Of a DNA stretch of 52,362 nt, positions 137 through 52,362 are shown piece after piece. Where the stretch lies: positions 1 to 52,362 of IMG/VR virus record IMGVR_UViG_3300028027_000073. One strand, written 5' to 3'. Made by a program: the position numbers and the translations under genes. How positions within the stretch are numbered: the stretch's first letter is position 1; the number at the start of each line of letters is the position of its first letter. This stretch comes from a virus. The notes beneath the pieces are model-generated. The model ran no database searches. It saw only the letters and a list, made by a program, of their open reading frames with translations, and had not been told where the DNA came from.

Positions 137-160
137 GGCTGTTCTAGTTTAGGAGTGGAT

Positions 161-1679: not shown

Positions 1680-1680
1680 A

Positions 1681-1921: not shown

Positions 1922-1932
1922 TCTAAATGTTA

Positions 1933-2004: not shown

Positions 2005-2022
2005 AGTTTGCTCCTTGTTTAT

Positions 2023-2042: not shown

Positions 2043-2120
2043 TAGCAAATTATGCTGTTTTTGCAATACAAAAGCAAGTAAGAAATATTTATATTACCCT
2101 AATGAAAATACGGAGACATT

Positions 2121-4377: not shown

Positions 4378-4389
4378 AAGGAGAATCAT

Positions 4390-5326: not shown

Positions 5327-5334
5327 AATTTTCC

Positions 5335-6072: not shown

Positions 6073-6099
6073 AATAACCTTTAGTTATAAGTTTACTTA

Positions 6100-9161: not shown

Positions 9162-9162
9162 G

Positions 9163-9321: not shown

Positions 9322-9381
9322 CTTATCCTTTCGGAGCATTATATAAGTTTATAGGGGGTAGGTATAAATCGTGCCATTCAA

Positions 9382-11001: not shown

Positions 11002-11009
11002 GTTTTATC

Positions 11010-12536: not shown

Positions 12537-12538
12537 GA

Positions 12539-14388: not shown

Positions 14389-14398
14389 ATCTAGTTCC

Positions 14399-37806: not shown

Positions 37807-38423
37807 TAAATGCCACCTTCCCAAACCTTACGAACTTGTTGAACATCCCCGTCGTTCCATCTCTCCTGATTAAGAAGCGTTAAAGGGGCTGGCGAGAAAC
37901 CATCTCTCCATGATTGAGTATCTTTCATCTTCTTTACATACCCTATCACTTCATCTGCTATACCGTCAAGATTTTTATTAGCCCATCTTTCCATACATGT
38001 TTTCTTGTTGACTTTACGAACATTAGGATAACTTTCCCAAAATTCTTCAAACCTATTGGTCGTTTTAACGACATATATATCTTCTCTTATCTTCTCTTCT
38101 CTTCTCTTCTCTATCCTAACAGTCTCATAGTTTTCTACTAGTAATCCTCTAGTAAATAGTTCTTTTACTATTTTTTCAACAAAATCAATAGGATAATGAA
38201 GTCTAAAAGCTATTTCAAAGTTGTCAGGTAACACACCATCACTTTCAGAACCAAGACACCACAACTCTACTAAAACAGCTTTTTGTTCAAAAGATAGTCT
38301 ATGAATTTCAATGTTGTTTATGTAATCCGTACCATAAAATTTAAACCACGTCATCTTTTTTTGATAACGTGGGTTCTTAGGATTGTAGAGATTAAACTTT
38401 TCCCAGTTCTTAATCTTGTACAT
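37806..38423 (-). CDS. O-like replication initiator / helicase loader
   Basis: The 205-aa product has an N-terminal winged helix (LSFEQKAVLVELWCLGSESD then NFEIAFRLHYPIDFVEKIV) like phage replication initiators, a charged RREEKIRED linker, and a C-terminal domain with FEEFWESYPNVRKVNKKTC ending with SPAPLTLLNQERWND. That part is common in replication proteins of this type. ATG 38423 follows a GAGG site. Its gene contains a repeat that may be the origin. Confidence 0.78.
   Translation of the reverse strand: MYKIKNWEKFNLYNPKNPRYQKKMTWFKFYGTDYINNIEIHRLSFEQKAVLVELWCLGSESDGVLPDNFEIAFRLHYPIDFVEKIVKELFTRGLLVENYETVRIEKRREEKIREDIYVVKTTNRFEEFWESYPNVRKVNKKTCMERWANKNLDGIADEVIGYVKKMKDTQSWRDGFSPAPLTLLNQERWNDGDVQQVRKVWEGGI
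38059..38112. other. candidate replication origin inside the initiator gene
   Basis: A perfect palindrome GTCGTT-TT-AACGAC at 38059-38072 adjoins an ATATATAT stretch and a run of 5-bp TCTTC-type direct repeats (38081-38112; purine-rich on the coding strand). In lambda the origin lies within O as iterons next to AT-rich DNA. The similarity of layout is suggestive only. Confidence 0.35.
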
Positions 38424-38577
38424 TAGTTGCCTCATTTCCAATCTTTAAACCTTTTTTAAGTATAACTCTTATAAAGCCATACTCTCTCTCATTTAATTCA
38501 AATCCTCCATCATTTAATTTACCTTCAGCCACTCCAAATATTGCATGAATAGCTACTAATGCGTCTCTTTCTGTCAT
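38410..38577 (-). CDS. hypothetical first gene of the leftward early operon, 55 aa
   Basis: ATG 38577 has a strong AGGAGAG site. The protein is small with ALVAIHAIFGVAEGKLNDGG followed by ELNEREYGFIRVILKKGL. It overlaps the initiator gene by 14 bases. Function unknown; position is like that of early regulators. Confidence 0.65.
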   Translation of the reverse strand: MTERDALVAIHAIFGVAEGKLNDGGFELNEREYGFIRVILKKGLKIGNEATNVQD

Positions 38578-38609
38578 AATGCTCTCCTGTTGGTTAATAA
38601 TGCCAAAAA

Positions 38610-38638
38610 AGATTAACATAAGTAATTCTAGTTGTAAA
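38610..38638 (-). promoter_or_regulatory. leftward early promoter (PL-like), unit A/B border
   Basis: On the minus strand TTTACA (38638-38633), a 17-base spacer and TAATCT (38615-38610) align with the better leftward promoter at 64-36, including the ATGTTAAT block before the -10. The -10 is weak. Confidence 0.45.
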
Positions 38639-38660
38639 CTAATTATTTGCTAGAAAATAC

Positions 38661-38689
38661 TTGACAGGTGTTTTTTATGAGTTTAGAGT
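38661..38689 (+). promoter_or_regulatory. rightward early promoter (PR-like), unit B
   Basis: TTGACA at 38661-38666, a 17-base spacer and TAGAGT at 38684-38689, 27 bases before ATG 38716. It corresponds to the promoter at 108-136. It should drive unit B genes to 42888. Confidence 0.65.
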
Positions 38690-38715
38690 TCAATTGTCAA
38701 CTTTAGGAGAGACAC

Positions 38716-38811
38716 ATGAAAATTTCAACAATGATAGCAGTAGCAGTACTATTTTGGGTTTATGTAGCTTCATGCCTTTGGGTTATGGGCAAATTAGCGG
38801 GAGCAATATAA
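38716..38811 (+). CDS. membrane peptide, 31 aa
   Basis: ATG 38716 has an AGGAGAG site. Almost the whole peptide is one hydrophobic segment (MIAVAVLFWVYVASCLWVM). Its stop overlaps the next start (TAATG). It takes the slot of the 43-aa membrane peptide of unit A without sequence likeness. Function unknown. Confidence 0.6.
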   Translation: MKISTMIAVAVLFWVYVASCLWVMGKLAGAI

Positions 38812-38921
38812 TGGAAAGACATTTAGACCCAGACGCTTATTTAGATGAAATGGATAGACTTGACAGATTGGAAGAAGAAGCCCAATATAAACTTGAGCAA
38901 CAGGAGAAACATGATGACTAA
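38811..38921 (+). CDS. acidic helical peptide, 36 aa
   Basis: Translationally coupled to the previous gene (TAATG). It is highly charged (LDEMDRLDRLEEEAQYKLEQ) and probably a single helix or coiled coil. No counterpart in unit A. It may pair with the flanking membrane peptides. Confidence 0.5.
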   Translation: MERHLDPDAYLDEMDRLDRLEEEAQYKLEQQEKHDD

Positions 38922-39114
38922 TTGGGGATGGGATAAAGATAGACATAATACCTGGTATAACCAATGGCATTATAAAACACCTAGAAGTTATCGTGAAAGA
39001 TATGGTGTTGACTATAAACATGACGATACAGAGCATGAAGAACATATAACAACAAATATCTTGACTGTCATATTAGTTTTAATTATAGTGGGGATGTTAT
39101 GTCTACAGAACTAA
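38914..39114 (+). CDS. tail-anchored small protein, 66 aa
   Basis: An AGGAG site at 38902-38906 favours ATG 38914 (ATG 38911 is possible). The N-terminal 45 residues are polar and rich in Trp, Tyr, His and Asp (WYNQWHYKTPRSYRERYG), followed by a C-terminal membrane segment (ILTVILVLIIVGMLCL). No counterpart in unit A; function unknown. Confidence 0.6.
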   Translation: MTNWGWDKDRHNTWYNQWHYKTPRSYRERYGVDYKHDDTEHEEHITTNILTVILVLIIVGMLCLQN

Positions 39115-39272
39115 AACCTATATCTGAAATACTAGAAGATGTTTGGAAGGAATTAAAAGAACTTAACGATAGATTTGACGAAAGGGAGAGAGCAAATGGA
39201 AGACCAATTTTACCAGGAAGTGATGCAGGAATTGCACGAGATGGAAACCAAACAACAGGAGAGAATAAATGA
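39099..39272 (+). CDS. hypothetical early protein, 57 aa
   Basis: ATG 39099 lies in the end of the previous gene; the stop overlaps the ERF start. The charged helix ISEILEDVWKELKELNDRFD corresponds to that of 277-474 in unit A. Function unknown. Confidence 0.55.
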   Translation: MSTELKPISEILEDVWKELKELNDRFDERERANGRPILPGSDAGIARDGNQTTGENK

Positions 39273-39282
39273 GCATTCATAA
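39196..39282 (+). CDS. possible overlapping peptide, 28 aa
   Basis: A GGGAGAG site precedes ATG 39196. The peptide (DQFYQEVMQELHEMETKQQE in its core) lies in a second frame across the previous gene and into erf. In unit A the frame upstream of erf gives a similar stretch (EQHQKEVLETLH), fused in frame with erf. Weak but repeated. Confidence 0.25.
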   Translation: MEDQFYQEVMQELHEMETKQQERINEHS

Positions 39283-39811
39283 AAAATTAATGCAAGCAAG
39301 ATTAAAGTTGCAAACAACAGACCTTAAAAAGTCTGGTCATAATAAATTTGCAGGATATAAGTATTTTGAGTTAGGTGATTTTTTACCTACTATTCAAGAA
39401 ATTTCTAATGAGGTGGGTATCTGTGGCACAGTAACATTTTATACAGATATAGCAATTCTTACTATTACAGACATGGATGATGCTACACAGTTTATTGAGT
39501 TTAAATGTCCTATGTCTTCAGCAGCTTTAAAAGGTTGCCATGATGTGCAAAACTTAGGTGCAGTTCAAACATACCTTCGTAGGTATTTATGGACTAATGC
39601 GTTTGAGATAGTAGAACATGACGCAATTGATGCTGCTAAACCTATAGAACCAGAAGAAGTTGAAATGACTGAGTCTCAATTAAGTAAATTTAAAACACAA
39701 TTAGAAGAAGCATTAAAAGAAGGTAAGCTAAAAGAAGCATTCTTTAAACTACCAGAAAATGTTAAAACTCAATTACGGGATTATGCTAATGAACTTAAGA
39801 AGTCTGCATGA
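39269..39811 (+). CDS. erf: ERF-family single-strand annealing protein
   Basis: The 180-aa product is nearly identical to the unit A ERF over its first 125 residues and then has a C-terminal extension of about 55 residues with two helices (QLSKFKTQLEEALKEGKLKE; VKTQLRDYANELKK). Such tails often mediate partner contacts. The partner exonuclease is a different one from that in unit A, so the tail may match it. Overlaps the exonuclease start by four bases. Confidence 0.87.
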   Translation: MSIHKKLMQARLKLQTTDLKKSGHNKFAGYKYFELGDFLPTIQEISNEVGICGTVTFYTDIAILTITDMDDATQFIEFKCPMSSAALKGCHDVQNLGAVQTYLRRYLWTNAFEIVEHDAIDAAKPIEPEEVEMTESQLSKFKTQLEEALKEGKLKEAFFKLPENVKTQLRDYANELKKSA

Positions 39812-40410
39812 GTCATTTAACCGACAATAGACGTCATAATATTATTACAGCTAGCAATGCTTGGTCTGCTGTGTATGAGAGACAAAAATTATGGCGTCAA
39901 ATGACTTTAAGAGAAGCTCCATTTGAAGGCAATGAAATGACTGAATGGGGTAATCTTAACGAACATCTTGCTATTTGTGAGTTTGAAAAAGCTATGGGAG
40001 AGATTACTGAAACTGGTAATAAGTTAATTGTTCATCCTGATTTACCATTAGGTGCAAGTCCAGATGGATTCTTAAATAGGCTGCCAATAGAAGCAAAGTG
40101 TCCTTATAGCCAAGAGTTTTATGGTATGATTCCAGACCGTTATTATTTCCAAACACAGTTACAAATGGAAGTATGTGGTGCTCCAAGATGTTATTTTGTA
40201 GTGTGGACACCAAAAGGAATTACTATACAAATTATTGAAAGAAGTAAAGAATGGTTTGACTGGTATAAACCTTTAGCGTTAGAATTTATGAAGTTTGTAG
40301 AAGATGATGTAGAGCCTACTCGTTGGAAACGCAAACCCATATTTGATATAGATTTGAAAGAAGATAAATTATTATTTCCAAAGGAGCAACAAGATGGCAT
40401 CAGTAAATAA
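39808..40410 (+). CDS. YqaJ-type exonuclease, distinct from that of unit A
   Basis: A 200-aa protein with [20 protein letters not shown] at the N-terminus, [13 protein letters not shown], then the catalytic [18 protein letters not shown] and [15 protein letters not shown]. Family and length equal the unit A enzyme but the sequence outside the active-site region is unrelated. It processes ends for ERF. It overlaps the SSB start by 17 bases. Confidence 0.85.
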
Positions 40411-40798
40411 AGCAATTATCGTAGGTAATTTAGGGAAAGACCCAGAGGTTAAATTTTTAACTAATGGTGACGCTGTGTGTAGTTTTAGTATTGCTACTAC
40501 TGACAGTTGGAAAGATAAAGCAGGTCAAAAGCAAGAAAAAACAGAATGGCATAACATTGTTATGTATAGAAAGTTAGCTGAAATTGCTGGTGAGTATCTT
40601 AAAAAAGGCAGTCCAGTATACGTTGAAGGTGCTTTACAAACTCGTAAATGGACTAATAAAGAAGGTCAAGATAAATATACAACTGAAATTGTAGCAAACA
40701 GTATGCAAATGTTAGGCGGTAAAACTTTACAACAAGAACAAAATAATACTAGAAGTGGTCCTGCTATTGAAGGGGCAGATGAGGACGTGCCATTTTAA
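40394..40798 (+). CDS. ssb: single-stranded DNA-binding protein
   Basis: The 134-aa product is a classical [55 protein letters not shown] and [16 protein letters not shown] form the OB-fold, followed by a short linker and the acidic DEDVPF tip. An AAGGAGCAAC site precedes ATG 40394. It protects single strands and recruits partners. Unit A has only a 76-aa substitute. Confidence 0.92.
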
Positions 40799-40807
40799 AG
40801 CACATCC
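40783..40807. terminator. stem-loop between ssb and pqqA
   Basis: Arms 40783-40790 and 40800-40807 pair at seven of eight positions with one C-A mismatch, spanning the ssb stop. Position and mismatch place agree with the stem at 1894-1921 though the arm sequences differ. No strong U tract. It lies between convergent ssb and pqqA. Confidence 0.35.
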
Positions 40808-40822
40808 CCATTAGCATGATAA

Positions 40823-40894
40823 CTATTTGTTCATTACGTACATAGTTACTTCAAAGCCAAAACGCATTTCTGTAGCTGCTGGAGTTGTCCACAT
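40823..40894 (-). CDS. pqqA: PqqA, peptide precursor of pyrroloquinoline quinone
   Basis: A 23-codon gene with an AAGGAT site before ATG 40894. It has the same RFGFEVTMY core with Glu15 and Tyr19 as the copy at 1933-2004, differing only at residues 4 and 6 (Thr for Ser, Ala for Ser). Of the eight base differences, five are silent or in the stop codon. It lies in the same slot and orientation as in unit A, after ssb and before the hydrolase. A TATAAT lies upstream on the minus strand (about 40951-40946) but without a good -35. Confidence 0.9.
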   Translation of the reverse strand: MWTTPAATEMRFGFEVTMYVMNK

Positions 40895-40997
40895 GGTATT
40901 TATCCTTAAGTAATATATTATGCTTAATTGCACAATATAATGGAATTATACGCTTATGTGGGTTTGCTAGACACCAGATAATCATTAAAGGTAGATA

Positions 40998-41387
40998 ATG
41001 GATATACATATTTCAGAACATGATGTACATTGTATAGCGACTGCTGTTTATACAGAAGTCAACATGCAATCACTAGAAGAAAAACTAGGGGTTATTAATG
41101 TCATTATGAACAGAGTTAGGTCTAAACGATTTGGTCGTGATGTTTGTGAGGTAGTTTATGCTAGGGGACAGTTCATTGGTATAGAAAACATGATGAAAGC
41201 TAAAGAAAAGAACATAGACCAAGAAACACTATTAAAGACTAAGTTACTTGTAATAGATACATTATTCTTTAAAAAGCATGCAAATCCTGTAGGGAATAGT
41301 CTATACTTTCATGACGATAGCGTAGATATGAAATATATCTGGGACAAGAAACCAAACAAAAAAATTGGAAGGATGGTGTTTTACTAA
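40998..41387 (+). CDS. SleB/CwlJ-like cell wall hydrolase
   Basis: The 129-aa orthologue of 2450-2839, with HCIATAVYTEVNMQSLEEKL, then GVINVIMNRVRSKRF, CEVVYARGQF and LYFHDDSVDM. An AAAGGTAG site precedes the ATG. The conserved acidic residue in AVYTEVN is kept. In unit B it directly follows the pqqA region because the 109-aa gene of unit A is missing. Confidence 0.8.
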   Translation: MDIHISEHDVHCIATAVYTEVNMQSLEEKLGVINVIMNRVRSKRFGRDVCEVVYARGQFIGIENMMKAKEKNIDQETLLKTKLLVIDTLFFKKHANPVGNSLYFHDDSVDMKYIWDKKPNKKIGRMVFY

Positions 41388-41632
41388 TGGCTAAAAAAGA
41401 ACCTGTAGCATGGCTTTATGAAGAGTTTGATATTAGGTCAGGTGACCTTAAAGCATCTTATTTGTGGTCGTTTCATCCTAAAGAATTGTCATATTTGAAT
41501 GATTTAAAAGGTTCAACACATCATATAAAAATAACACCATTATTCAGAGGCGAAAAAATAGAAGAATACAAGTCAATGAATAAGTACTCAGAAGAAACAC
41601 AAAGATTAATTGAAAGCAATAATGGACTCTAA
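41387..41632 (+). CDS. hypothetical protein, 81 aa
   Basis: Starts by TAATG overlap with the hydrolase. VAWLYEEFDIRSGDLKASYL followed by ELSYLNDLKGSTHHIKITPL parallels the 76-aa protein at 2839-3069. A conserved small partner of the hydrolase gene; function unknown. Confidence 0.65.
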   Translation: MAKKEPVAWLYEEFDIRSGDLKASYLWSFHPKELSYLNDLKGSTHHIKITPLFRGEKIEEYKSMNKYSEETQRLIESNNGL

Positions 41633-41768
41633 ACCACTTACCCAAGAAGAAATTATAAAGGTATATAAAGAAGCATTTGGATACGGTAGTCAAGTAATAA
41701 CGATTGACAAGATATTTAAGTTTGCTAGACTTATAGAACAATTGCATGGAGTAAAAGATGTACACTAA
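41622..41768 (+). CDS. hypothetical protein, 48 aa
   Basis: ATG 41622 overlaps the previous stop. The peptide contains EEIIKVYKEAFGYGSQVITI and FKFARLIEQLHGV, a form seen in small phage proteins of unknown role. Overlaps the next gene. Unit-B specific. Confidence 0.6.
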   Translation: MDSKPLTQEEIIKVYKEAFGYGSQVITIDKIFKFARLIEQLHGVKDVH

Positions 41769-42021
41769 ACTAGACGACCAAAGACAAGCAAAGTTTGTTA
41801 TAAACTATATTACTGCACATCCTGGTTGCAGCATTAAACAAATTGTGCAAGAATGTGTCATTTCAAGGTCAAGGTTAAAATACCTAGAAAGTCAAGAATA
41901 TTTGATTTTGCCTAAATGGACTTATAGCAATGAACTAGATAAACGATTTAAGAATAGAAAATACGTATCTGTAACTGTAGGTAGGGAGTATGGAAAATGG
42001 GACGAGCAGAAAAGGTATTAG
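41758..42021 (+). CDS. possible helix-turn-helix protein, 87 aa
   Basis: FVINYITAHPGCSIKQIVQE followed by RSRLKYLESQEYLILP resembles a winged-helix DNA-binding domain with a recognition helix. The C-terminus is basic. It lies where unit A has the glycosyltransferase and FkbM genes. It may regulate early genes; this is inference. Confidence 0.5.
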   Translation: MYTKLDDQRQAKFVINYITAHPGCSIKQIVQECVISRSRLKYLESQEYLILPKWTYSNELDKRFKNRKYVSVTVGREYGKWDEQKRY

Positions 42022-42113
42022 ATGTAGTAGTATGGTTGTTGATTGTTGGTGGTATGGGTTGGTTTGCTTATGGTTGTTATGAACTTATTGATTTATTTTT
42101 TCTAAGGGGATAG
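41997..42113 (+). CDS. membrane peptide, 38 aa
   Basis: ATG 41997 lies in the end of the previous gene. A central hydrophobic segment (VVVWLLIVGGMGWFAYGCY) is flanked by charged ends. A GGGAGTATGG stretch may serve as ribosome-binding site. No family known. Confidence 0.55.
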   Translation: MGRAEKVLDVVVWLLIVGGMGWFAYGCYELIDLFFLRG

Positions 42114-42115
42114 AT

Positions 42116-42391
42116 ATGGTAGATATGGTAAATAGACCTCCACATTATTTAGTGGGCGGAATTGAAGCAATAGATGTAATTAAGAGTCGTTTAACTAAAG
42201 AAGAATACATTGGGTATCTTAAAGGCTGTAAGCTCAAGTATGACTTACGCTATCCGTTTAAAGATAATCCACAACAAGATTTAGACAAGTCTGATTGGTA
42301 TAAAAATAAGCTATTAGAAGTTACTAAAGACGAAGATGCTGTAAACCCACCTGAAGTAGAAGCTATCTTAGAAAGATTTGATGATGAATAA
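42116..42391 (+). CDS. DUF3310 protein (T7 gp1.7-like)
   Basis: The 91-aa orthologue of 4390-4668, with RPPHYLVGGIEAIDVIKSRL, YIGYLKGCKLKYDLRYPF and SDWYKNKLLEVTKDEDAV. An AAGGGGA site lies before ATG 42116; ATG 42125 is possible. Probable role in nucleotide metabolism by analogy with T7 gp1.7. Confidence 0.85.
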   Translation: MVDMVNRPPHYLVGGIEAIDVIKSRLTKEEYIGYLKGCKLKYDLRYPFKDNPQQDLDKSDWYKNKLLEVTKDEDAVNPPEVEAILERFDDE

Positions 42392-42539
42392 AACCTATTG
42401 GGTATTTATTGTGGTATTAGCTGCATTAGCTATTTGGGGAACAGAAAGAGCTATGGCTCAAACTACGACTATACTAGCACCAGATGGTTCTGTAACTGTC
42501 TGTCAGGTTGGTAGTAATGGTGTGATTATTTGTGTCTAA
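42384..42539 (+). CDS. secreted peptide, 51 aa
   Basis: A signal peptide (WVFIVVLAALAIWG...AMA) is followed by a short mature part QTTTILAPDGSVTVCQVGS and NGVIICV, with two cysteines that may form a disulfide. ATG overlaps the DUF3310 stop; its own stop overlaps the next GTG. No counterpart in unit A. It would be exported early in infection. Confidence 0.6.
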   Translation: MNKTYWVFIVVLAALAIWGTERAMAQTTTILAPDGSVTVCQVGSNGVIICV

Positions 42540-42888
42540 TGGTATGCGTAATAGTCAAGCTACTCATGTAGATTTTGGCTTTTTGCGTGGAGCAATAAAA
42601 AGTAATCCTAAAGTAATACCTGTAAATTTAGACATGGTATATGAACATAAGGGTCATTTTTTATTTGCAGAATGGAAACGTGAAAACGAACAAATTAGTG
42701 AAGGGCAAAAGATACTATTAAGAAACCTAGCAAAACTACATACAGTATTGCTAATTATTGGACATAGTGATGAAACATCAACCGAAGTAAAAGATTTTTA
42801 TTGGGTTCGTGGGCTATATATGACTCATGTTGGAAAGGGTATAGACTCATTAAAAGATTATATAGATGATTGGTGGAACGAATATTAA
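42532..42888 (+). CDS. putative PD-(D/E)XK-type nuclease, 118 aa
   Basis: GTG 42532 overlaps the previous stop (GTGTCTAA). VNLDMVYEHKGHFLFAEWKR supplies an Asp...Glu-x-Lys arrangement typical of small PD-(D/E)XK proteins, followed by a helix (EGQKILLRNLAKLHTVLLII). It is the last rightward gene, converging with the gene ending at 42885. Unit A has an unrelated nuclease-like gene there. Confidence 0.55.
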   Translation: MSNGMRNSQATHVDFGFLRGAIKSNPKVIPVNLDMVYEHKGHFLFAEWKRENEQISEGQKILLRNLAKLHTVLLIIGHSDETSTEVKDFYWVRGLYMTHVGKGIDSLKDYIDDWWNEY

Positions 42889-43061
42889 TCATCCATAGGT
42901 GTTAATTCACCATAGATAGCTAGTTCTTCACCACTTATTTCTATCATGCTATCGTCATCTAATGTGATAACTATAGTGCTATCGCCATGTAATGCTTCAC
43001 AAGATACAATCACTCTTCCTAACATGTGATTACAGATAATTTCTACTTCTGACCGTTGCAT
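42885..43061 (-). CDS. hypothetical acidic protein, 58 aa
   Basis: Orthologue of 5159-5326. ATG 43061 is preferred. It ends with LDDDSMIEISGEELAIYGEL and is conserved despite exchange of the gene just upstream. Function unknown. Confidence 0.7.
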   Translation of the reverse strand: MQRSEVEIICNHMLGRVIVSCEALHGDSTIVITLDDDSMIEISGEELAIYGELTPMDD

Positions 43062-43068
43062 AATTGTC

Positions 43069-43773
43069 CTAAGAAACATGACCATTCCAACGCCCATTTT
43101 CTTTTAATACCATAGGCATTAGCTTTGGTTGACCGTTAATAATAACTCCACAACCTACAATGAAACGACTCTTAAAGTTTTTAGCATAGTCAAATGCCAT
43201 AGACTTTTGATGTATTAAACATCCTACTTGCATACCCCAAATAAGAGCATCTGGGTTACTGTAATAACCAATACTGAATTTAGTATGATAGTGACCCTGC
43301 ACCGTATTCATTCCATACTGCTGGGCTACCTTTAAAACGTCAGCAGATAAACCATGAGTAAAGAAACATCTAGAGTTATCACTTAAGGTTATGGTGTGGT
43401 CATCTACCCATTCCCAGCCTTTGCCAACGCCTAAGAACTCATTGTAATGCTTTAGATATGCTTTAGGCATACCATACTTTAATGCTCTACGATAAACTAA
43501 AGAGCTATGGTTAGAATGAACTAAAACCATCTTAGGGAATATCTTTTCTAGTTCTTTGACATGCTTCTTAGACTCTTCTAATTCATGTCCAGCAGAGTAT
43601 AAGTCTGGGTTATGTTCGTGCATAGAGATAGCGTGTTGGTCTAGCTCATCACCTATGTTGACTATATGGTCAAACTTGTATTTAGTCTTTAATGCTTTGA
43701 GAAACGCAAATGCGTCAGGATGATGATATGGAATATGTAGGTCAGATATGACTAGAACTGATTTATATTTCAA
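43069..43773 (-). CDS. calcineurin-like metallophosphoesterase
   Basis: The 234-aa product shows the metal-binding motif series: VISDLHIPYHH (Asp11, His13), IVNIGDELDQH, a modified GNH motif VLVHSNHSS, FFTHGLS and VQGHYHTKFS. Such enzymes hydrolyse phosphodiesters, often nucleic acids or nucleotides. It takes the slot held in unit A by the DnaQ-like exonuclease, between the endolysin and the small acidic protein. Confidence 0.88.
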   Translation of the reverse strand: MKYKSVLVISDLHIPYHHPDAFAFLKALKTKYKFDHIVNIGDELDQHAISMHEHNPDLYSAGHELEESKKHVKELEKIFPKMVLVHSNHSSLVYRRALKYGMPKAYLKHYNEFLGVGKGWEWVDDHTITLSDNSRCFFTHGLSADVLKVAQQYGMNTVQGHYHTKFSIGYYSNPDALIWGMQVGCLIHQKSMAFDYAKNFKSRFIVGCGVIINGQPKLMPMVLKENGRWNGHVS

Positions 43774-43801
43774 ACTACTCTCCTAGGGTTAAGATGCTTT
43801 A

Positions 43802-44326
43802 TTATAACCCTAAAAACAATTTGCGTTCATCTAATCTTCTGTTTTGTAAACCTTTTAATATCTTACCACCAGCTTTACAATATTTAACTAACGACTCCAT
43901 AGCCGCTTCTTTATCGCCACGTAACAACGCTTGACGGATGGTTGAACGCTGAAAGCATCCAAGACCCAGATTAAAGCAAAAGCTGACAAGAGCGTCAAAC
44001 TCATGTTGTCGTAAAGGCACGTTAGGTAACATCTTATGTACTCCCAACTCAAAACGGTTGAGGTCTCGTTTAAGAATTGCATCTATTTCCTCGTTAGTAA
44101 ATGTTTTGTTCCATTCAGGCGGTAATGTTTTGCCATCACCAATCAAATGACCAATTCCTACTGTCCACAGTTTTGCGGGACACTGGTATGGTTTGTTTCT
44201 AACACCTTCGTGATGACGTAGTAACTTGATAAGTTTATCAGATACTTTCACGTTTCTTTTCCCATGTACGAGAGCCGAAATAGAAACCAATAATAGATGC
44301 AGTAATAGCCATTTCATCTGAACCAA
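43802..44326 (-). CDS. GH24 endolysin
   Basis: A 174-aa protein nearly the same as that at 6100-6624, with the active site HHEG, QCPA and WTVGIGH in the same spacing. The N-terminal hydrophobic export segment differs (WLLLHLLLVSISALVHG), so this end has diverged while the catalytic core is identical over 207 bp. ATG 44317 is an alternative start. Overlaps the holin gene by 89 bases. Confidence 0.92.
   Translation of the reverse strand: MVQMKWLLLHLLLVSISALVHGKRNVKVSDKLIKLLRHHEGVRNKPYQCPAKLWTVGIGHLIGDGKTLPPEWNKTFTNEEIDAILKRDLNRFELGVHKMLPNVPLRQHEFDALVSFCFNLGLGCFQRSTIRQALLRGDKEAAMESLVKYCKAGGKILKGLQNRRLDERKLFLGL
43925..44131. repeat. 207-bp block identical to 6223-6429
   Basis: Second copy of the exact repeat in the endolysin gene. 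The first difference on each side is one base outside the block. It lies 37,702 bases from the first copy. Confidence 0.85.
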
Positions 44327-44735
44327 ATACTGCCTCTGAAGCTGTTACAAAATCTACACCTGTCCACATAGCCCAACCTAATGAGATAAGATTAATAAGC
44401 ACTAACTCACCTACAAAGATAAATGCTACTACAGGTCTAACCATAGCGTTCCAGTTTTTAACTGTAGAACTTGCATTTTCTACTAACTTCTTATCATGGT
44501 CGTATAATGCTTCACGTTCTTGTGCGTATGTTTGCACTTCTATTTGGTCTAGCTTAATAGCTTCTATTTTTTCTTGTGATATAAAACCTGCTTTAGCTAA
44601 TTCTAATTCACGTTCTGTTTGTAGTTTAGCCATTTCTCTTTCATGCTTTTGGTCACCCTTTTGCTGAAAGAAACCTAAAATACTAGGTAAACCTGAGGTA
44701 GCAAAACCTAATATGCCTGATAAAATACTTAACAT
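44238..44735 (-). CDS. holin, three-transmembrane type
   Basis: A 165-aa orthologue of 6536-7033 with the same hydrophobic N-terminus, charged helix and two C-terminal membrane segments; only about ten residues differ. Same overlap with the endolysin. Expected to permeabilise the inner membrane. Confidence 0.8.
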   Translation of the reverse strand: MLSILSGILGFATSGLPSILGFFQQKGDQKHEREMAKLQTERELELAKAGFISQEKIEAIKLDQIEVQTYAQEREALYDHDKKLVENASSTVKNWNAMVRPVVAFIFVGELVLINLISLGWAMWTGVDFVTASEAVFGSDEMAITASIIGFYFGSRTWEKKRESI

Positions 44736-45095
44736 CTATAACTCCTTTGGGTCAAAGCCATACATTTTGGCTACACGTTTTTGTAATTTAAGAAACAAGC
44801 CTTTATGACTCGTGTACTGTTCTGTTTTTGGTGAAACTGTATATACACACATATGCAATATTTCATGACAGAGTGTAATTAACACAGGATATAAGTGAGA
44901 GTGTCTTGCAGTAGATATAGTAATGACATGTGGTTCACCTTGTTCTGGTGGTTGATATTCTCCACATATAGTATCGTCATGCAATACTATGAAGTCTACT
45001 TTAGATGCAGGTGGTAGTTTGTATTCATCAAATATAGGCATCTCTATAATTGCACTATAGAGGTTAGCTATGTTATTTTCTGTAATGAATGTCAT
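44736..45095 (-). CDS. HExxH zinc metallopeptidase-like protein
   Basis: A 119-aa orthologue of 7034-7393 with the same LCHEILHM zinc site. Differences cluster in one short loop (VLHDDTICGEY against VNDNAICGEY). Its start overlaps the upstream stop. Confidence 0.7.
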   Translation of the reverse strand: MTFITENNIANLYSAIIEMPIFDEYKLPPASKVDFIVLHDDTICGEYQPPEQGEPHVITISTARHSHLYPVLITLCHEILHMCVYTVSPKTEQYTSHKGLFLKLQKRVAKMYGFDPKEL

Positions 45096-45499
45096 TTTGA
45101 TAATGGGTTCATTGTGCTACGTTTAACAGTATTTAGTTTATCATCCATTGCATTTACGGTTGCTTCTAATTCTTTACGTAGTCCTGATACCATAGCAGAA
45201 GTCTCACGTGAGTTGGCAATAGCGTCTGAAGACTTTTCACTAGCTTTCATTATAGACTCTGATAGCTGATATTGTCTTTCATTAATAGCTTTAACTTGTA
45301 TCTCTAAACCATTTAACTTAGACTCTATAGGAGCTAAGTCTAAACTGTCAACAGCTTCAATTGCCGTAACCATCTTGTTGTAAAAAGTTATGCCTGCGTA
45401 TGCCGAGCCAGCCACTATTGGCAATGCTATTAAAATCAACTTCAGAAGTGCCGAGCTGGATAAGCTCAAGTTGAAGGTTTTGATTTTTTCCGAACTCAT
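45092..45499 (-). CDS. membrane-anchored coiled-coil protein
   Basis: A 135-aa protein differing by about one residue from that at 7390-7797, with one membrane segment and a coiled coil. The first 143 bases are dual coding with the Cys-rich protein gene, which may explain the low divergence. Confidence 0.7.
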   Translation of the reverse strand: MSSEKIKTFNLSLSSSALLKLILIALPIVAGSAYAGITFYNKMVTAIEAVDSLDLAPIESKLNGLEIQVKAINERQYQLSESIMKASEKSSDAIANSRETSAMVSGLRKELEATVNAMDDKLNTVKRSTMNPLSK

Positions 45500-46427
45500 T
45501 GTTTATCTCCGTATCAAATTTGAAAGCATCTGTTAATTCAATTTGCTGTATAATAGGTTTGTTAAGTATTTCTAGTGAAAGAACTATTCCAAAACCATGT
45601 ACAAGCTCCTTACCTTTTGGCACGTCAAGTTTAGGACTATCCTTGCTATCATTCTTTTGTTCAGCCTTTGGTGGGTCTTTTGGGCTGTCTTCTTTTGCTT
45701 TTGGCTCGCTTTTAGCTTCCTGTTTTGGCTGTTCAACCTTAATGGGAGGAGGGCTAGATAAAACAGGCTCACCAGGGCTATTTGTAGGTAGCCCAGCAGG
45801 AGGTGGTGGAGCTGCAACAGGTGGTGGGTTATTTACAGGGTTAAGGGGTGAGCTAGGGCTAACTGGAGAACTCACGTTGGTGACGTTTGTAGCACTCTTA
45901 ACACATGTATTATTTGTTTCTACCCATGCTCCCCATACATCATTACCATAAGGGTCAGGACAAGATGAATTTCTAGTTTCTGTAACTGAACCTACATAGT
46001 CTGCTTGACAGGCTAATTGTCTAGTTTCAGTACTTGCTTGACACGTTGGAGGGTCTTGCGTGCAATTGTTGCTAGTTTCTGTCCAAGGTGACCAAGAGTT
46101 TGAAGAACAACTATAAGTCCTGCTTTGATTAATAGCACCGCTATAATGAGGTAACGTACAAGCTGTGGTTTGATTTTCAACCAAAGGAGAACAAGTAGGT
46201 GCTTGATACGCACCGCAAATTGGGTCACTTGGGTTATAAGATACGCACCAATAGTCTTTAAGTGCAATTTGTGGGTCAATGCCATTACATACGAGAGAAT
46301 CTGGAAGCATATAGCCTTCAGGCGTTGGAGTATAGTTGCAATACCAAGCATAAGCATTATTTCCTTGTAGGGATAGAAGTAGTAATAGGCTCGTCAAGAA
46401 CAAGCGGTATCGTGTATGTATCGCCAT
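45357..46427 (-). CDS. secreted Cys-rich protein with proline-rich linker
   Basis: Orthologue of 7655-8728, starting at ATG 46427 with a signal peptide ending NAYA. The Trp/Cys modules (SWSPWTETSNNC, VWGAWVETNNTC) and C-terminal domain are conserved; the proline linker is different in sequence and length. This points to a flexible spacer between two functional ends. Confidence 0.75.
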   Translation of the reverse strand: MAIHTRYRLFLTSLLLLLSLQGNNAYAWYCNYTPTPEGYMLPDSLVCNGIDPQIALKDYWCVSYNPSDPICGAYQAPTCSPLVENQTTACTLPHYSGAINQSRTYSCSSNSWSPWTETSNNCTQDPPTCQASTETRQLACQADYVGSVTETRNSSCPDPYGNDVWGAWVETNNTCVKSATNVTNVSSPVSPSSPLNPVNNPPPVAAPPPPAGLPTNSPGEPVLSSPPPIKVEQPKQEAKSEPKAKEDSPKDPPKAEQKNDSKDSPKLDVPKGKELVHGFGIVLSLEILNKPIIQQIELTDAFKFDTEINNEFGKNQNLQLELIQLGTSEVDFNSIANSGWLGIRRHNFLQQDGYGN

Positions 46428-46869
46428 ATAGTTTCTTAAATATAGAAGGGTTACGTTCATACCAGCCACGTTTAGCAGCATCACCTATAGAACCGTTTAT
46501 AGGGCATGGTGAACCTGACTGTATCATGGCTTCAAATACTCTATCATCTTGACAAAGGATAGATACTGCTGCAACTTTAAGACCTAAGTCATTAAGAGTT
46601 TTAGCTAATTTAATACGTTCACAATTAACGTCTTTATAGCCAGAGCCACCACTTACGCCAAACAATGTACTAGATACAGAACCAGTAACAGGAACAATAC
46701 AAACGTCTTGGCTAAAAGCACTTATAGAAGGGCTAATGGCACTTGGTGGTGGTTGACCTTTGTAGTTGATAGTAGTTGTATCTGCTGCTCTAGCATCCAT
46801 AGATAATGCTAATAACATACCTATTGACATACCTACGAGTAATGCTATTAAGTTTCTTAATGCTTGCAT
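46357..46869 (-). CDS. secreted protein of unknown function, 170 aa
   Basis: The mature domain is almost identical to that at 8655-9161, but the signal region (LIALLVGMSIGMLLALS...ARAA) is unrelated to that of unit A. A replaced N-terminal export signal on an unchanged domain indicates recombination at the gene start. Function unknown. Confidence 0.75.
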   Translation of the reverse strand: MQALRNLIALLVGMSIGMLLALSMDARAADTTTINYKGQPPPSAISPSISAFSQDVCIVPVTGSVSSTLFGVSGGSGYKDVNCERIKLAKTLNDLGLKVAAVSILCQDDRVFEAMIQSGSPCPINGSIGDAAKRGWYERNPSIFKKLYGDTYTIPLVLDEPITTSIPTRK

Positions 46870-47027
46870 TATTTCATTCCATTGGTTAGTAGATAAACAA
46901 TAACGAAACCTGCTGTGCCTAATAAGATTTGTTCTAGGCGTTTAAGTCTTGCGTTTATTTGCTCATAACGTAACGCACATACTTCTTCATGCGTACTTAA
47001 ACGTGCTTCTACGTCTGTCTTGACCAT
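46869..47027 (-). CDS. coiled-coil tail-anchored membrane protein, 52 aa
   Basis: Orthologue of 9163-9321 with the identical core RYEQINARLKRLEQILLGTA and a membrane segment. Stop and next ATG share one base. Probably an accessory membrane protein of the lysis or virion region. Confidence 0.75.
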   Translation of the reverse strand: MVKTDVEARLSTHEEVCALRYEQINARLKRLEQILLGTAGFVIVYLLTNGMK

Positions 47028-47036
47028 TACTGTTCC

Positions 47037-48458
47037 TTACTGTGAGAGAAGACCAGGATACTGGTTATTTAATTCAAATTGTTGTTCTATAAGTTGTCTT
47101 GCTAAAGTATTTCTAGCATTATTATCTAAAAACATACCTAAACCTTGATTTTGTTTTTTGTATAGTTCTAATGCTGCTTTACCTTTAATTTTAGGAGAGT
47201 CTAATAATGATTGTGCAAAACCAAGAGCTGCACCAGGGATACCGCCTAAAGCTCCACCAGCACCAGTTTTTGCAGTAGCACCAAGACCCATTAAATCTCT
47301 ATTTTCAATACGACCTACAGCTTTTTGAAGATTAGGTTGCAGTTCTTTTAATGAACCATATTGTGCATTAATAGCTTTAAGTTCTGGCATAAATCCTTCT
47401 AGTGATGTTTTTGCTACATCTGCCATAGCTCTATAAGCATCTTCTTTTGCAATGGATGGTTTTGTAGGTGCTCTTCCAAAATCAATACGTTTATAAGCGT
47501 CTGATTTAAAATCTTGAAGTTGTTGTGGTGTTACAGAAGTAATTTTATTTTGTTTTAAGTATGTTTTAAACTGCTTTTCAATATCATTAATTTCTTTAAT
47601 ATCTTGTGCTGCTTCAATTTTAAAACCACCTGATTTTTTCTTAACATCTTTAAGACTTTCTAATACTTTTGTAGCTGGAATTTTAATGTTTTGGTCGGTA
47701 GCGTTAGTAATTAAATTATCCATTTTATCGCCAAGGTCAGTAAGTTTAGATTGAACTTTACCTAATCCTGAATAATCTAATGGTATTTGATTTTTAAGTG
47801 CAGTTTCAGTTATTGATGCTCTGTCTGCTGGAGATAAAGTAGTACCCCATTTAGCTGCACTTTCATACATCATAGGTGCTACAGTTTTAGGAATTACTTT
47901 TGATGCACCATACATAGTAGTATTAGCTGCTAGATTTAATGGGTCAATTGCTGTTCCTGCTTTAGCAACCTGTTCTAATCCAGCAGATACTTTTGTTCCT
48001 AATTTAGATAATGATGCAACTTTAGCAGCACCAGAAGCTCCACCTGTAACAAACATAGATATATCACTTAATATACTTGCTGGATTGTTTTGCAATTCTT
48101 TTAAAAAAGCATCTTTACTACCATATTTATTAGAGTAATAATCACCTAAAGCATCTGCATATTTTTCATGAGATTGCACACCATCTGTAGCTTTTTCTGC
48201 AATACCCAATGCTAAATTACCAATACCTTTTAGTGTTTGAATTGGTTGTGTAATTGCACCAATTACATTTTTACCTTCTTCAACAATGCTTCCAGGAAGA
48301 TTTTTTAATGCTTCTTTTCCTGAAAATTGAAACTTAGATGCTTCTTGTTGTTTAGCAGCTTGGTATGCTTGAGCAATAGTTTCAAACTCAGGTGTTCCTT
48401 GTTTGTCTTGATTTTTAATAATCCATTGTGCGTAATCTGAAGCTGAACTAGCCATCAT
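47037..48458 (-). CDS. internal virion (ejection) protein, 473 aa
   Basis: Occupies the slot of 9382-11001. It starts ASSASDYAQWIIKNQDKQGT and has LSDISMFVTGGASGAAKVAS, then helical regions (MDNLITNATDQNIKIPATKV) and a Gly/Ala stretch near the end. Similar layout to the unit A protein (helices, a DIS(T/M)...GA motif, late Gly-rich stretch) but low identity. AAGGA site upstream; ATG 48455 is an alternative. Confidence 0.55.
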   Translation of the reverse strand: MMASSASDYAQWIIKNQDKQGTPEFETIAQAYQAAKQQEASKFQFSGKEALKNLPGSIVEEGKNVIGAITQPIQTLKGIGNLALGIAEKATDGVQSHEKYADALGDYYSNKYGSKDAFLKELQNNPASILSDISMFVTGGASGAAKVASLSKLGTKVSAGLEQVAKAGTAIDPLNLAANTTMYGASKVIPKTVAPMMYESAAKWGTTLSPADRASITETALKNQIPLDYSGLGKVQSKLTDLGDKMDNLITNATDQNIKIPATKVLESLKDVKKKSGGFKIEAAQDIKEINDIEKQFKTYLKQNKITSVTPQQLQDFKSDAYKRIDFGRAPTKPSIAKEDAYRAMADVAKTSLEGFMPELKAINAQYGSLKELQPNLQKAVGRIENRDLMGLGATAKTGAGGALGGIPGAALGFAQSLLDSPKIKGKAALELYKKQNQGLGMFLDNNARNTLARQLIEQQFELNNQYPGLLSQ

Positions 48459-48474
48459 ATATCCTTATTGAGGT

Positions 48475-49566
48475 TTATTTTCTATTTAAAATTTGGTCTG
48501 CTTGATTAAATATTGCTTGATTTGGGTTATTAGCACCACCTCTATTTTGTGTATTAGCTGTAAGCTCATCAAATCTTTTCTTAACGTTATCGCTAACTGC
48601 TTGACCAAGTGAGTTATCATAATTAGCAAGACCTTCGTAACTAAATGTACCTGATTGAATATTTTTTCTAGCCCAATCAGAAAGTTTAGCATTACGAATT
48701 GCATTAGCTTCTGCAATTTGAACCATAACATCTCTACCTTCTTTAGAAGTTGCAAGACTTGGAAACGCAGCTTTATACGCACCAAACTCTAAGTCAGAAG
48801 TAGAACCACTACCAGGTGTTCTAATTTCTGTAGCACCTTTAGTAGCAATAGCATCAATAACTTGATTAACATTAGCAGTTGGAGTATTAATTCCTAAAAA
48901 GTTTTGTAAGTTAGCAGTTAATTTAATTGCACCACTACCTTGTTGATTTCCAATTAATGAGCTAATAGTTCTTGTGTTATTTGCAATACTTCTAGCAGAA
49001 TTAGTACTTCCAACCAACCCTTCTAATGTACCTTTATCAACATCAAGAAGAACCTTATTAGGGTTAGGCATTTGATTAGTAATATTAGTTTTAGGAGCTT
49101 TAAGATTAGCCATTTTTGTAGCCCAATCTTGAAATGAACCTGTAAATCCTTGAGTTTTAGCATACTCATATTCACGAACATCATTAGGAACTACTTTTAA
49201 ACGGTCTAATTCAGCGTCTCTAAGTTCTTTTTGAATTTTAAGTTTATTCATTTCATTTTCTGTAGCTTGTGTATATGGCGTTTGTGCAGCTTGCATACCA
49301 CCTAAATATGATTTACCAAGAATAGCACCTAAGCCAATATTTTGGTTTTTAGGTTGTGCTAAATATGTTGCACCTGCACCTAAAATGCCAGATAGTAAAG
49401 ATTGATTTCTAAGTTTATCTTGTTGAGCTTGATTTAATAAGCCAGGAACTGCAGGAGTTTCTCCTTGAGCAGGTGTCCCAGTTAAGTAATCAGGAAGTCT
49501 AGCTCCAAATATATTCATACCACTAAACAAATTTCCTAAACCACTATTTGTGTCAAATAATGCCAT
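48475..49566 (-). CDS. internal virion protein, 363 aa
   Basis: Slot equivalent of 11010-12536. LLNQAQQDKLRNQSLLSGIL followed by GAGATYLAQPKNQNIGLGAI resembles the unit A start; it lacks the Gln/Pro-rich linker. The middle has a repeated LxxxNTRTISSLIGNQ-type helical section. No enzyme motif. Confidence 0.55.
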   Translation of the reverse strand: MALFDTNSGLGNLFSGMNIFGARLPDYLTGTPAQGETPAVPGLLNQAQQDKLRNQSLLSGILGAGATYLAQPKNQNIGLGAILGKSYLGGMQAAQTPYTQATENEMNKLKIQKELRDAELDRLKVVPNDVREYEYAKTQGFTGSFQDWATKMANLKAPKTNITNQMPNPNKVLLDVDKGTLEGLVGSTNSARSIANNTRTISSLIGNQQGSGAIKLTANLQNFLGINTPTANVNQVIDAIATKGATEIRTPGSGSTSDLEFGAYKAAFPSLATSKEGRDVMVQIAEANAIRNAKLSDWARKNIQSGTFSYEGLANYDNSLGQAVSDNVKKRFDELTANTQNRGGANNPNQAIFNQADQILNRK

Positions 49567-49567
49567 T

Positions 49568-50275
49568 TTATCTTCCTCTAAATCCTGTTGTTTGCAATTG
49601 TTGTTGTAATCTTAAAAGTTCTTCTTCTGTTAAAGGTATAGTTGTATTTAAGTTTGGTAAACCTATTTCATTACCCCTTTGTTGTAATGGATTAGGTGCA
49701 ACATTTTGTAAAGTAGATGATGGGTTAGTATTAAAGTTAGGAGCCACAAGATTAGGATTACCTTGTCTAACTCCAGTTTGAGCAGATGTATCTATTGGAG
49801 TTCTTGGAGGATTAGCAGCTTCATAACCTTTCATGCCTAAACCTAACTTATCCATAGTAGACATATTATTAAAACCTTCTTTAATATTGCCACCTATATT
49901 TCCAAATGTATCAGTAATATTTGACCCTAATGTTTCTAATGCAGATGGTGGAGTAAAGTTAAGTCCTGTACCAATATTAGTGGCAGCATTACGTAATGCG
50001 TCAGCACCTGTTACAAAACTTGCACCTGAAGCTGCTGGAGCAGAAGATAATAGTGATGAAGCTATTTGACCGTTAGAGCCCACAAGACCTGATACTCCTG
50101 CTGTCCCTGCTCCAGTACCGCCTGCACCGCCTGCAAATCCACTACCAATGCTACCAGCACCGCCAAATAAACCACCAGTAGCACCGCCAAGTAATGCACC
50201 CATAAATGGATTTTTACCCATAGCAGCAGATGTTGCTGCACCAATACCAGCACCTATTAATAGAGGTGGTCCCAT
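49568..50275 (-). CDS. Gly/Ala-rich internal virion protein, 235 aa
   Basis: Counterpart of 12539-13276. An N-terminal Gly/Ala-rich hydrophobic stretch of about 65 residues is followed by a polar, Asn/Pro-rich part. Likely membrane-active ejection protein by position and composition. Confidence 0.55.
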   Translation of the reverse strand: MGPPLLIGAGIGAATSAAMGKNPFMGALLGGATGGLFGGAGSIGSGFAGGAGGTGAGTAGVSGLVGSNGQIASSLLSSAPAASGASFVTGADALRNAATNIGTGLNFTPPSALETLGSNITDTFGNIGGNIKEGFNNMSTMDKLGLGMKGYEAANPPRTPIDTSAQTGVRQGNPNLVAPNFNTNPSSTLQNVAPNPLQQRGNEIGLPNLNTTIPLTEEELLRLQQQLQTTGFRGR

Positions 50276-50276
50276 A

Positions 50277-51386
50277 TTATTTACCTACCTTACCTGCTAC
50301 ATAGCAAATTGGTTCAATGATTGCACGATAGATACGACCTAATGTATCTCTACGTTTACCACGCATTTCTTTCCATAAGTCAGCAGTTCTATGTCTTGCA
50401 ATATGTTCTGAAACTTTACGAACAAGTTTACGAACAAATGTTTGTTTATCACTAAATGCAAACGCAACAACTGGTAAGAATAATTTATGGTATCCTTTTT
50501 CAATTGTTTTAGCATTAGGCATATTAGCTGAATGTTGTAACCAGATAGCTTGTCTAAAGCTACCAAATCCGTATGCTTTGTTCATTGCTGTGCATACTAT
50601 CTTACCACCACCAGACTGAGTAGTAGTAGATACTGAGCCTGTAGGAGCACCATAAGCTGCACCAAGATAAGAAGATAGTTTTTGATATGGTTTGTTTTGT
50701 TCAAAGTTAAATCTATCAATATCAGCTTGTAATGCTGTTTTTTGATAATCTTCTTGAGTCTTACCTACATTCAGAAGTTGTTGAATGTCACCATAATCAG
50801 CAGCAGCTAATGCAGGAGCACCCATAGAAGCAGCATCTTGTCTGCCACGTTCAGTAGCGTAATTAGTATAAGCTAATTCACCATACTTATTAGCTAGTGT
50901 ATTAGATAATGTATTAGCAGCACGATTTTGAATATCAGCAGAAACACCAGAGCCATAACGACCAGCTCTAGATGCACCAGATTGTGCAGCCATAATAGCA
51001 TCATTATAATTTTGTGTAGCACCTTGTGCAGCACCTGCTAGAGCTTGGTTAAAGTATGGGTTGTTTTGTAAATAAGCACCACCAATAACATCTTGTTGCT
51101 GACGTTGAGCTGCAGGAAGTAAAGGATTTCCAGCTAATGCACGATTTTGAGCAGATTGTAATGCTGTTTGTGTTTGTGCAGAAGGACCTACATAAGTTTG
51201 ACCACCATAGTATTGTGGTGTATCTGTTTGATAAAGACTTTTAGCTTCATTAAGACCATATTCAACAAATGGTCTAACAGTAGGGTCTAATTGATTTTGA
51301 GTTTGAGATGAGCCACCTCCACCACCACCTTTGTAGAATGTAAAGTTGTCTACTAAATTAAATAGCCAGTTATTAAGATTAATCAT
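50277..51386 (-). CDS. virion internal/tail protein with conserved C-terminal domain, 369 aa
   Basis: Orthologue of 13276-14388. The Gly linker, QLDPTVRPFVEYGLNEAK, RAGRYGSGVSADIQNRAANT, NKPYQKLSSYLGAAYGAP and the C-terminal KIVCTAMN and HIARHRTADLWK segments are retained, others vary. The start agrees with the start chosen in unit A. Confidence 0.65.
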   Translation of the reverse strand: MINLNNWLFNLVDNFTFYKGGGGGGSSQTQNQLDPTVRPFVEYGLNEAKSLYQTDTPQYYGGQTYVGPSAQTQTALQSAQNRALAGNPLLPAAQRQQQDVIGGAYLQNNPYFNQALAGAAQGATQNYNDAIMAAQSGASRAGRYGSGVSADIQNRAANTLSNTLANKYGELAYTNYATERGRQDAASMGAPALAAADYGDIQQLLNVGKTQEDYQKTALQADIDRFNFEQNKPYQKLSSYLGAAYGAPTGSVSTTTQSGGGKIVCTAMNKAYGFGSFRQAIWLQHSANMPNAKTIEKGYHKLFLPVVAFAFSDKQTFVRKLVRKVSEHIARHRTADLWKEMRGKRRDTLGRIYRAIIEPICYVAGKVGK

Positions 51387-51793
51387 GTTATTCGTTTCTC
51401 CACTATAATGTATCTGTTTTCAAATCCGTAAGCACGCTTCCAAAGCCTAGCTACTGCTTCAAATGCTGCTCCCTGTATCTTTGTGCCACCATTGGCTTTA
51501 ACCCATAATTCAAATTCACTAAAACCTTGCTTATCTGTTTTGCCACCAATAGCTGTTATAAATGCTACTCTGTCGTTAGGATAGTTAATCCACTCTATGG
51601 TCATAGCACATTTAATTATTAAATCTTCTTCTGTACCTACACACAATACTTGTCTACCTTGTGCAAGCAATACTTTAAGTTGGTCAAGGTCATACTCACC
51701 ACCAGAATGAGCCATAGCTCTATCTAGCATGATTTCTACTTTGTCCCATGTTTGTTGGATGTGTGATGTAGGAACTACATAAAACTTTAGCAC
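51383..51793 (-). CDS. second GNAT-like protein, unit B only
   Basis: A 136-aa protein with VPTSHIQQTWDKVEIMLDRA at the start and AFEAVARLWKRAYGFENRYI at the end, the same layout as gp13-type GNAT-like phage proteins but hardly similar to its neighbour. It overlaps both flanking genes. Unit A has no equivalent, its internal-protein gene following the single GNAT-like gene directly. Confidence 0.6.
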   Translation of the reverse strand: MLKFYVVPTSHIQQTWDKVEIMLDRAMAHSGGEYDLDQLKVLLAQGRQVLCVGTEEDLIIKCAMTIEWINYPNDRVAFITAIGGKTDKQGFSEFELWVKANGGTKIQGAAFEAVARLWKRAYGFENRYIIVEKRIT

Positions 51794-52176
51794 TCAAACC
51801 TCCATGTATATGGTTTAAATCCTAGTTTAGGTGCAATTTTTTCAAAGCCTTTACGATAAGAACTAAATGTTATTTCTTTAGCGTTCATCTTATGTGCTAT
51901 TTCTACTATCTCTGTTAAACCTTCTGATAGTATGTCATGTGAGTTACTGTAAGCAGCCCATACATGAAGTGAGTTATTTATAAGTTGCGTTATAAGATAG
52001 CCTATAAAGTAACCGTCTTTAATACCTAAATATAGTTGAGCTTTTCCTACTTTAATATCACAATAGGCATCTTCTGGTATCCAATCACCACCTAGTTCGG
52101 ATATTTCACCTAAACTTGGTTTTATTTGGTTCCAGACTTGTTTTAATTCGTTTGGATTTATGTATTTTAATTGCAT
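51787..52176 (-). CDS. GNAT-like protein (T7 gp13-type position)
   Basis: The 129-aa orthologue of 14399-14797: WIPEDAYCDIKVGKAQLYLG, NNSLHVWAAYSN, EITFSSYRKGFEKIAPKLGF. ATG 52176 overlaps the fibre stop (TAATG). It may be structural or an acetyltransferase. Confidence 0.65.
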   Translation of the reverse strand: MQLKYINPNELKQVWNQIKPSLGEISELGGDWIPEDAYCDIKVGKAQLYLGIKDGYFIGYLITQLINNSLHVWAAYSNSHDILSEGLTEIVEIAHKMNAKEITFSSYRKGFEKIAPKLGFKPYTWRFEC

Positions 52177-52362
52177 TATGCTACTATAATATATCCGTAT
52201 GTTTTATCTGCTGTATTGTTTGCAAAATGTTTTAGTGTTGCACTACCTTTAGTTCTAGCACTTACATATACATTAGTAGATGCTGAAGTTGATACATAAC
52301 TCATTGTAGTAATAACGCTTGGTGTAGCTGGTCTTGTTGGACTTGTACCTGCTGCATAATGT
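52176..52362 (-). CDS. virion/tail surface protein, C-terminal part, cut by window end
   Basis: The visible 61 codons match the end of 14794-15588 with only a few base changes, ending KTYGYIIVA. The 5' part lies outside the window, so unit B continues to the right. Confidence 0.7.
   Translation of the reverse strand, partial: HYAAGTSPTRPATPSVITTMSYVSTSASTNVYVSARTKGSATLKHFANNTADKTYGYIIVA

Follow-up and report, generated by a model that had tools for sequence, protein, structure and literature searches.

Why would a virus carry, at the same place in two diverged genomes, a gene for a 23-residue peptide of a bacterial cofactor pathway, and what would switch such a gene on? The question is raised by the window analyzed here, a stretch of 52,362 nucleotides that constitutes an IMG/VR virus record and contains two copies of pqqA. 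A preliminary description had argued from these copies that the peptide, not the DNA, is conserved and that its slot is a stable home for the gene across diverged phages.

The two copies belong to two units of the window. In unit B, a genome of approximately 38.8 kb is traversed a second time, in diverged form; compared between laps (window 38400-52362 against 1-15000), unit B consists of mosaic repeat pieces that are 68.7-98.4% identical to unit A, and the last 183 bases of the contig are 98.4% identical to unit A 14798-14980. The genome of phage P19250A is circular and measures 38.7 kb. The window is probably a chimeric circular assembly that continues from one phage into the genome of a relative occurring alongside it, and the tandem arrangement of units A and B is probably not biological. 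On this reading, its pqqA copies offer a fair comparison between two different phages. Downstream of the slot in unit A (3059-4377) lie two genes for which unit B showed no counterpart at this position; the first belongs to a PHROG family of unknown function (phrog_1574), and the second is methyltransferase-like (phrog_8156).

Identity of the two pqqA copies

In unit B, pqqA occupies 40823-40894 on the minus strand, runs from an ATG at 40894 down to a TAG (23 amino acids plus stop), and is translated as MWTTPAATEMRFGFEVTMYVMNK. The unit A gene (1933-2004, minus strand) is translated from 2004 down to 1933 as MWTSPSATEMRFGFEVTMYVMNK and, as the preliminary description had it, shares slot and orientation with the unit B copy. 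Identification as pqqA is upheld by model matches, with both window peptides above the curated cut-offs of TIGR02107 and PF08042. The unit B peptide matches these models at E = 5.6e-10 and E = 3e-10, respectively, with scores of 38.8 bits against a cut-off of 20 (TIGR02107) and 40.3 against 21.1 (PF08042); the unit A peptide matches TIGR02107 at E = 1.8e-8. A degenerate PqqA pattern found no match in 100 shuffles, so chance does not account for the gene. PHROGs contains no family matching PqqA, which is one sign of the ease with which annotation overlooks it.

The window peptide resembles the PqqA family (TIGR02107, PF08042) in length, WxxP start, GFEVTMY core, and the presence of Glu15 and Tyr19, and it differs in being phage-borne, in a record that holds no other pqq genes. 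The Glu and Tyr that PqqE cross-links stand four residues apart, as E15 and Y19 in both window copies; the pair is numbered 16 and 20 in Methylorubrum PqqA (PMC10906245). Compared codon by codon, the copies share 21 of 23 residues and differ at eight bases, exactly as first counted. The residue changes fall in codon 4 (two bases, Ser/Thr) and codon 6 (Ser/Ala), and the remaining differences are silent (codons 7, 8, 20, and 23) or lie in the stop (TAA/TAG). The flanks are likewise unalignable, as had been described, with an ungapped identity of 16-48% per 25 nt and a longest common word of 8 nt in the 120 nt upstream of the two copies.

Selection on the peptide and stability of the slot

The unit B slot is bounded by ssb (40394-40798, plus strand; phrog_44, E 2e-56), which converges on pqqA, and by an endolysin-like gene (40998-41387, plus strand; phrog_938, E 1.8e-14). 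The latter provides an unbiased anchor that is independent of pqqA. It has 37 relatives in IMG/VR, and 35 loci with enough upstream sequence served as usable slots. At 34 of the 35, pqqA is intact and keeps its slot and orientation; in the sole broken slot (L161, 1840-1900), ssb and pqqA are each cut short and joined to one another, which, judged from the sequence, suggests a chimeric junction more than gene decay.

Homologues selected by this anchor (16 distinct sequences, among them the two window copies) give a dN/dS of 0.07, the check that the preliminary description had called for, and indicate strong purifying selection. A larger set of 152 distinct viral sequences gives 0.071 (pS 0.55, pN 0.07), and none of the five other frames, which contain stops in some or nearly all of the 152 sequences, is under comparable constraint. 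Because some of the larger set was retrieved with patterns in which certain residues are fixed, selection is tested more cleanly by the anchored set. Patterns that fix Glu15 and Tyr19 are also circular with respect to their conservation, and a scan that leaves both free was therefore added, together with the endolysin-like and terminase anchors. Both residues are kept in all 152 distinct viral copies, including those from the free scan. The many frameshifts or changes at Glu15 and Tyr19 that had been named as evidence against a conserved peptide are not seen: neither residue is altered in 152 copies, and one slot (L161) in 35 is broken. One terminase-anchored locus has the core EIRLGMEITAY, in which both Glu and Tyr are retained. 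A phage pqqA with a differing core (L575), MWTTPAATEIRLGMEITAYVMNR, has a box of the same type upstream and may reflect a second origin of pqqA.

The idea of the slot as a stable home holds within the window's phage lineage; across phages in general it does not, as MEP401, MEP402, and Melnitz house the gene elsewhere. The contrast between a conserved peptide and unconserved DNA needs correction as well. Within the lineage, promoter, leader, and Shine-Dalgarno sequence are approximately as conserved as the codons (consensus frequency 0.92-1.00 versus 0.98), and a host-type operator, described below, is also retained at fixed spacing across unalignable lineages.

Distribution among phages and hosts

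A tblastn search over 50,697 phage records recovered pqqA from P19250A, Venkman, MEP301, MEP401, MEP402, and four Melnitz records, as well as from a Manatee Spring phage of unknown host and two Acinetobacter records. One Acinetobacter record was inspected, and its context is ppk and pqqBCD. In this record (CAKLQF020000010.1, “Acinetobacter phage MD-2021a”; L130), ppk and pqqA, pqqB, pqqC, and pqqD lie in a row with a radical SAM gene. The record seems to be bacterial DNA that was submitted as a phage.

The phages that bear pqqA (P19250A, Venkman, MEP301, MEP401/402, and Melnitz) differ in tails and gene contexts. In the window lineage, P19250A, Venkman, and MEP301, the gene lies close to ssb or recombination genes; in MEP401/402 it adjoins other genes, and in the T4-like Melnitz it is found beside tRNA-Leu. 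Nine cultured-phage records of this host group contain the gene, and in every one it goes without the pqqA label: either it is unannotated, or its place is covered by an unrelated hypothetical ORF; in Melnitz and the Manatee Spring phage, the hypothetical ORF is antisense to pqqA. Two such deposited antisense proteins (L124, 2067-2195; L129, 2961-3056) are probably spurious. The main text of the papers on MEP301, MEP401/402, and Melnitz does not mention pqqA. Among terminase-anchored long contigs, the gene is present in 10 of 11 from the window lineage, 6 of 13 of P19250A type, and 2 of 10 of MEP401 type, and no degenerate pqqA was detected at E <= 10 in seven pqqA-negative contigs. These counts indicate that phage pqqA is common but not universal; universality among methylophages is rejected by the P19250A-type and MEP401-type contigs.

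On the host side, a search of 84,980 species genomes used the core EMRFGFEVTMY. Among the matches listed, labels are mostly Methylophilaceae, and the exact peptide of the window is the commonest form. All nine candidate host genomes carry pqqA, in 1-5 copies each, and PqqE exceeds its cut-off in eight of the nine; Lake Washington Methylophilaceae have 3-12 pqqA copies per genome (PMC4109929). The window contains no PqqE. With PqqE in the hosts and none in the window, the phage appears to supply the substrate rather than the enzymes. This is a host-type gene on a phage genome, identical in peptide to that of hosts, flanked by ssb and endolysin genes, and present in cultured phages, and the window's phages are presumed to infect Methylophilaceae.

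A PQQ box shared by hosts and phages

De novo motif searches were run separately on 55 phage and 42 host upstream clusters that are unalignable with one another. Both converge on a single element, here called the PQQ box. Its phage form is T[AC]ATG[AG]TTTTC and its host form the palindrome CTMATGAWWWTCATKAG; the log likelihoods are approximately four times those of shuffled sets. At a threshold of at least 8 bits, the host-trained matrix recovers 41 of the 55 phage clusters, compared with 2% for both random phage segments and shuffles (p = 6e-26), and it matches upstream of 2.6% of other phage ORFs. Eight terminase-anchored loci were left out of training; seven score at least 8 bits and the eighth 7.5. 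Intergenic sites of at least 17 bits that were examined in three host genomes all precede pqqA or pqqB, the latter confirmed by TIGR02108. A search of three host genomes for a wider regulon returned further matches that are almost all within coding sequence or weaker. At host loci L585-L619 (genomes G001, G002, and G007), copies of pqqA, as well as pqqB, are preceded by the box, which frequently occurs in duplicate at a distance of 23 nt.

In the window, the unit A box (2097-2116, minus strand; TCTCCGTATTTTCATTAGGG) scores 16.9 bits with the host matrix and is the best site of the whole window with the mean matrix of host and phage. The unit B box (40970-40989, minus strand; TTTAATGATTATCTGGTGTC) scores 13.8 bits with the mean matrix and 9.7 with the host matrix and is the third best site. 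Downstream, on the minus strand, unit B has a -10 element, TATAAT (40945-40950), that begins 39 nt after the box start, and a Shine-Dalgarno sequence, AAGGA (40903-40907), that is invariant in 20 distinct lineage leaders; TATAAT and AAGGA together are reported as invariant in the lineage. Unit A has a -10 of CATAAT (2049-2054, minus strand) at 62 nt. Scans for sigma-70 promoters and terminators around both copies found nothing, with no consensus -35 at either copy, and this lack of a match prompted an activator-type reading of the promoter. In unit B, the -10 lies in an inverted repeat, TATAAT-TCC-ATTATA (40936-40950), that is kept in many relatives and might serve as an operator or as a divergent -10.

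The spacing is shared as well. The -10 begins 62 nt after the box start in hosts and either 39/40 or 62/63 nt after it in phages, unit B exemplifying the shorter register and unit A the longer. The two phage registers differ by 23 nt, the exact distance at which host boxes tend to be doubled. For the -10 offsets, p = 3e-11 in phages and 9e-19 in hosts, values that are indicative since hexamer hits were treated as independent and offsets were picked after seeing the data. A dimeric regulator next to RNA polymerase would be the natural reading of this geometry. We infer activation from the position of the box; repression would fit the palindrome equally. With a host box at host spacing upstream, phage pqqA can be counted as a candidate member of a host PQQ regulon, a grouping newly defined here, with exceptions in MEP401, which has no clear box (3.3 bits), in MEP402, whose box is weak, and in Melnitz, which has a strong box and no -10 at the usual spacing.

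Proposed role and alternative explanations

We propose, as the probable explanation, that this is a genuine phage pqqA, an auxiliary metabolic gene that feeds the host PqqDE enzymes and is wired into the host PQQ regulon. Phages of Methylophilaceae (LD28/OM43-type methylotrophs) would make the 23-residue precursor, host PqqD and PqqE would cross-link its Glu15 to Tyr19, and host PqqF/G, PqqB, and PqqC would complete PQQ, the cofactor of methanol dehydrogenase; no other pqq gene would be needed on the phage. One molecule of PqqA is consumed per cofactor. Given this use and the several gene copies that hosts maintain, one small gene could raise supply. Transcription would start from a promoter in which a host-type palindromic PQQ box replaces the -35 position, such that phage pqqA would be switched by the same putative regulator as host pqqA and pqqB. 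From this position behind an apparent host PQQ switch, the virus probably keeps host methanol oxidation supplied during infection. The sequences themselves establish the gene's identity, the selection on it, the match of its peptide to that of hosts, its recurrence among unrelated phages, and the box with its spacing; the proposal predicts that pqqA is expressed, that the regulator binds the box, that PQQ is raised, and that the phage benefits. With somewhat less assurance, we also favor the broader view that unrelated Methylophilaceae phages repeatedly capture pqqA together with the host PQQ box, placing the precursor under the host regulator, and that the box defines a PQQ regulon of pqqA copies and pqqB.

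The most serious alternative leaves the function of pqqA in place and has it transcribed from ordinary phage promoters, the box being inherited host upstream DNA that is nonfunctional in infection. Short upstream regions can travel with a captured gene, and MEP401 manages without a clear box. Nevertheless, we consider this explanation unlikely: boxes persist at the host -10 spacing across upstream clusters that are otherwise unalignable, they precede few other phage ORFs (the 2.6% given above), and the consensus -35 is missing from both copies.

Two further explanations deny the gene its metabolic role. The peptide might be a decoy that binds host PqqD/PqqE unprocessed, lowers PQQ, and shuts down methanol oxidation, as a lone substrate could, by inference, compete for these proteins with their other clients. 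In a decoy, loss or alteration of the cross-link residues would be expected, whereas these are always retained and the peptide equals, letter for letter, the commonest form of host PqqA among the matches listed, which makes this scenario very improbable. Slightly less probable still is that DNA rather than peptide is kept, as an attachment site or structured RNA overlapping host pqqA. Some copies are indeed highly identical to host pqqA DNA, with seven sequences exactly shared; yet changes concentrate at synonymous sites, the ORF is complete with its own Shine-Dalgarno sequence and promoter, and the subset of window ORFs scanned with PHROGs includes no integrase.

Relation to known systems and significance

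Phage-borne pqqA has already been reported. Lake Baikal virus VP_266, assigned to Methylophilaceae, encodes PqqA beside methanol dehydrogenase (Coutinho 2020, PMC7678222), and pqqA/E/D are reported from reservoir viruses (PMC13188868). Like the window, these cases present pqqA as a viral auxiliary metabolic gene. They are single metagenome reports, whereas the window pqqA stands alone, recurs in further phage lineages, some of them in culture, and is preceded by a host-type operator. The Lake Baikal paper also states that P19250A is without such genes (PMC7678222); contrary to this, P19250A carries pqqA by sequence. The closest precedent in logic is that of cyanophage genes placed under host PhoBR via Pho boxes, for which PhoB binding was shown by gel shift (PMC10976474). 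The arrangement of a phage gene behind a host operator is the same, but regulator, box, hosts, and metabolism differ, and binding at the PQQ box is predicted here from sequence. The literature searched yielded no published description of a PQQ box or of PQQ regulation in these bacteria. As far as that literature extends, the breadth of pqqA in cultured methylophages, the PQQ box, and its sharing between host and phage are new.

Methylophilaceae are abundant methanol users of fresh and coastal waters. If the proposal is true, many phages of these bacteria provide PqqA, from which the methanol dehydrogenase cofactor is made, by means of a gene that standard annotation misses because of its size. 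The long-standing question of a benefit of such genes to the phage then becomes unusually testable, since pqqA is only 72 bp, the enzymes are known, phage-host pairs are in culture, and a short box would predict when the gene is on. The PQQ box would, in turn, provide a handle on PQQ regulation in Methylophilaceae.
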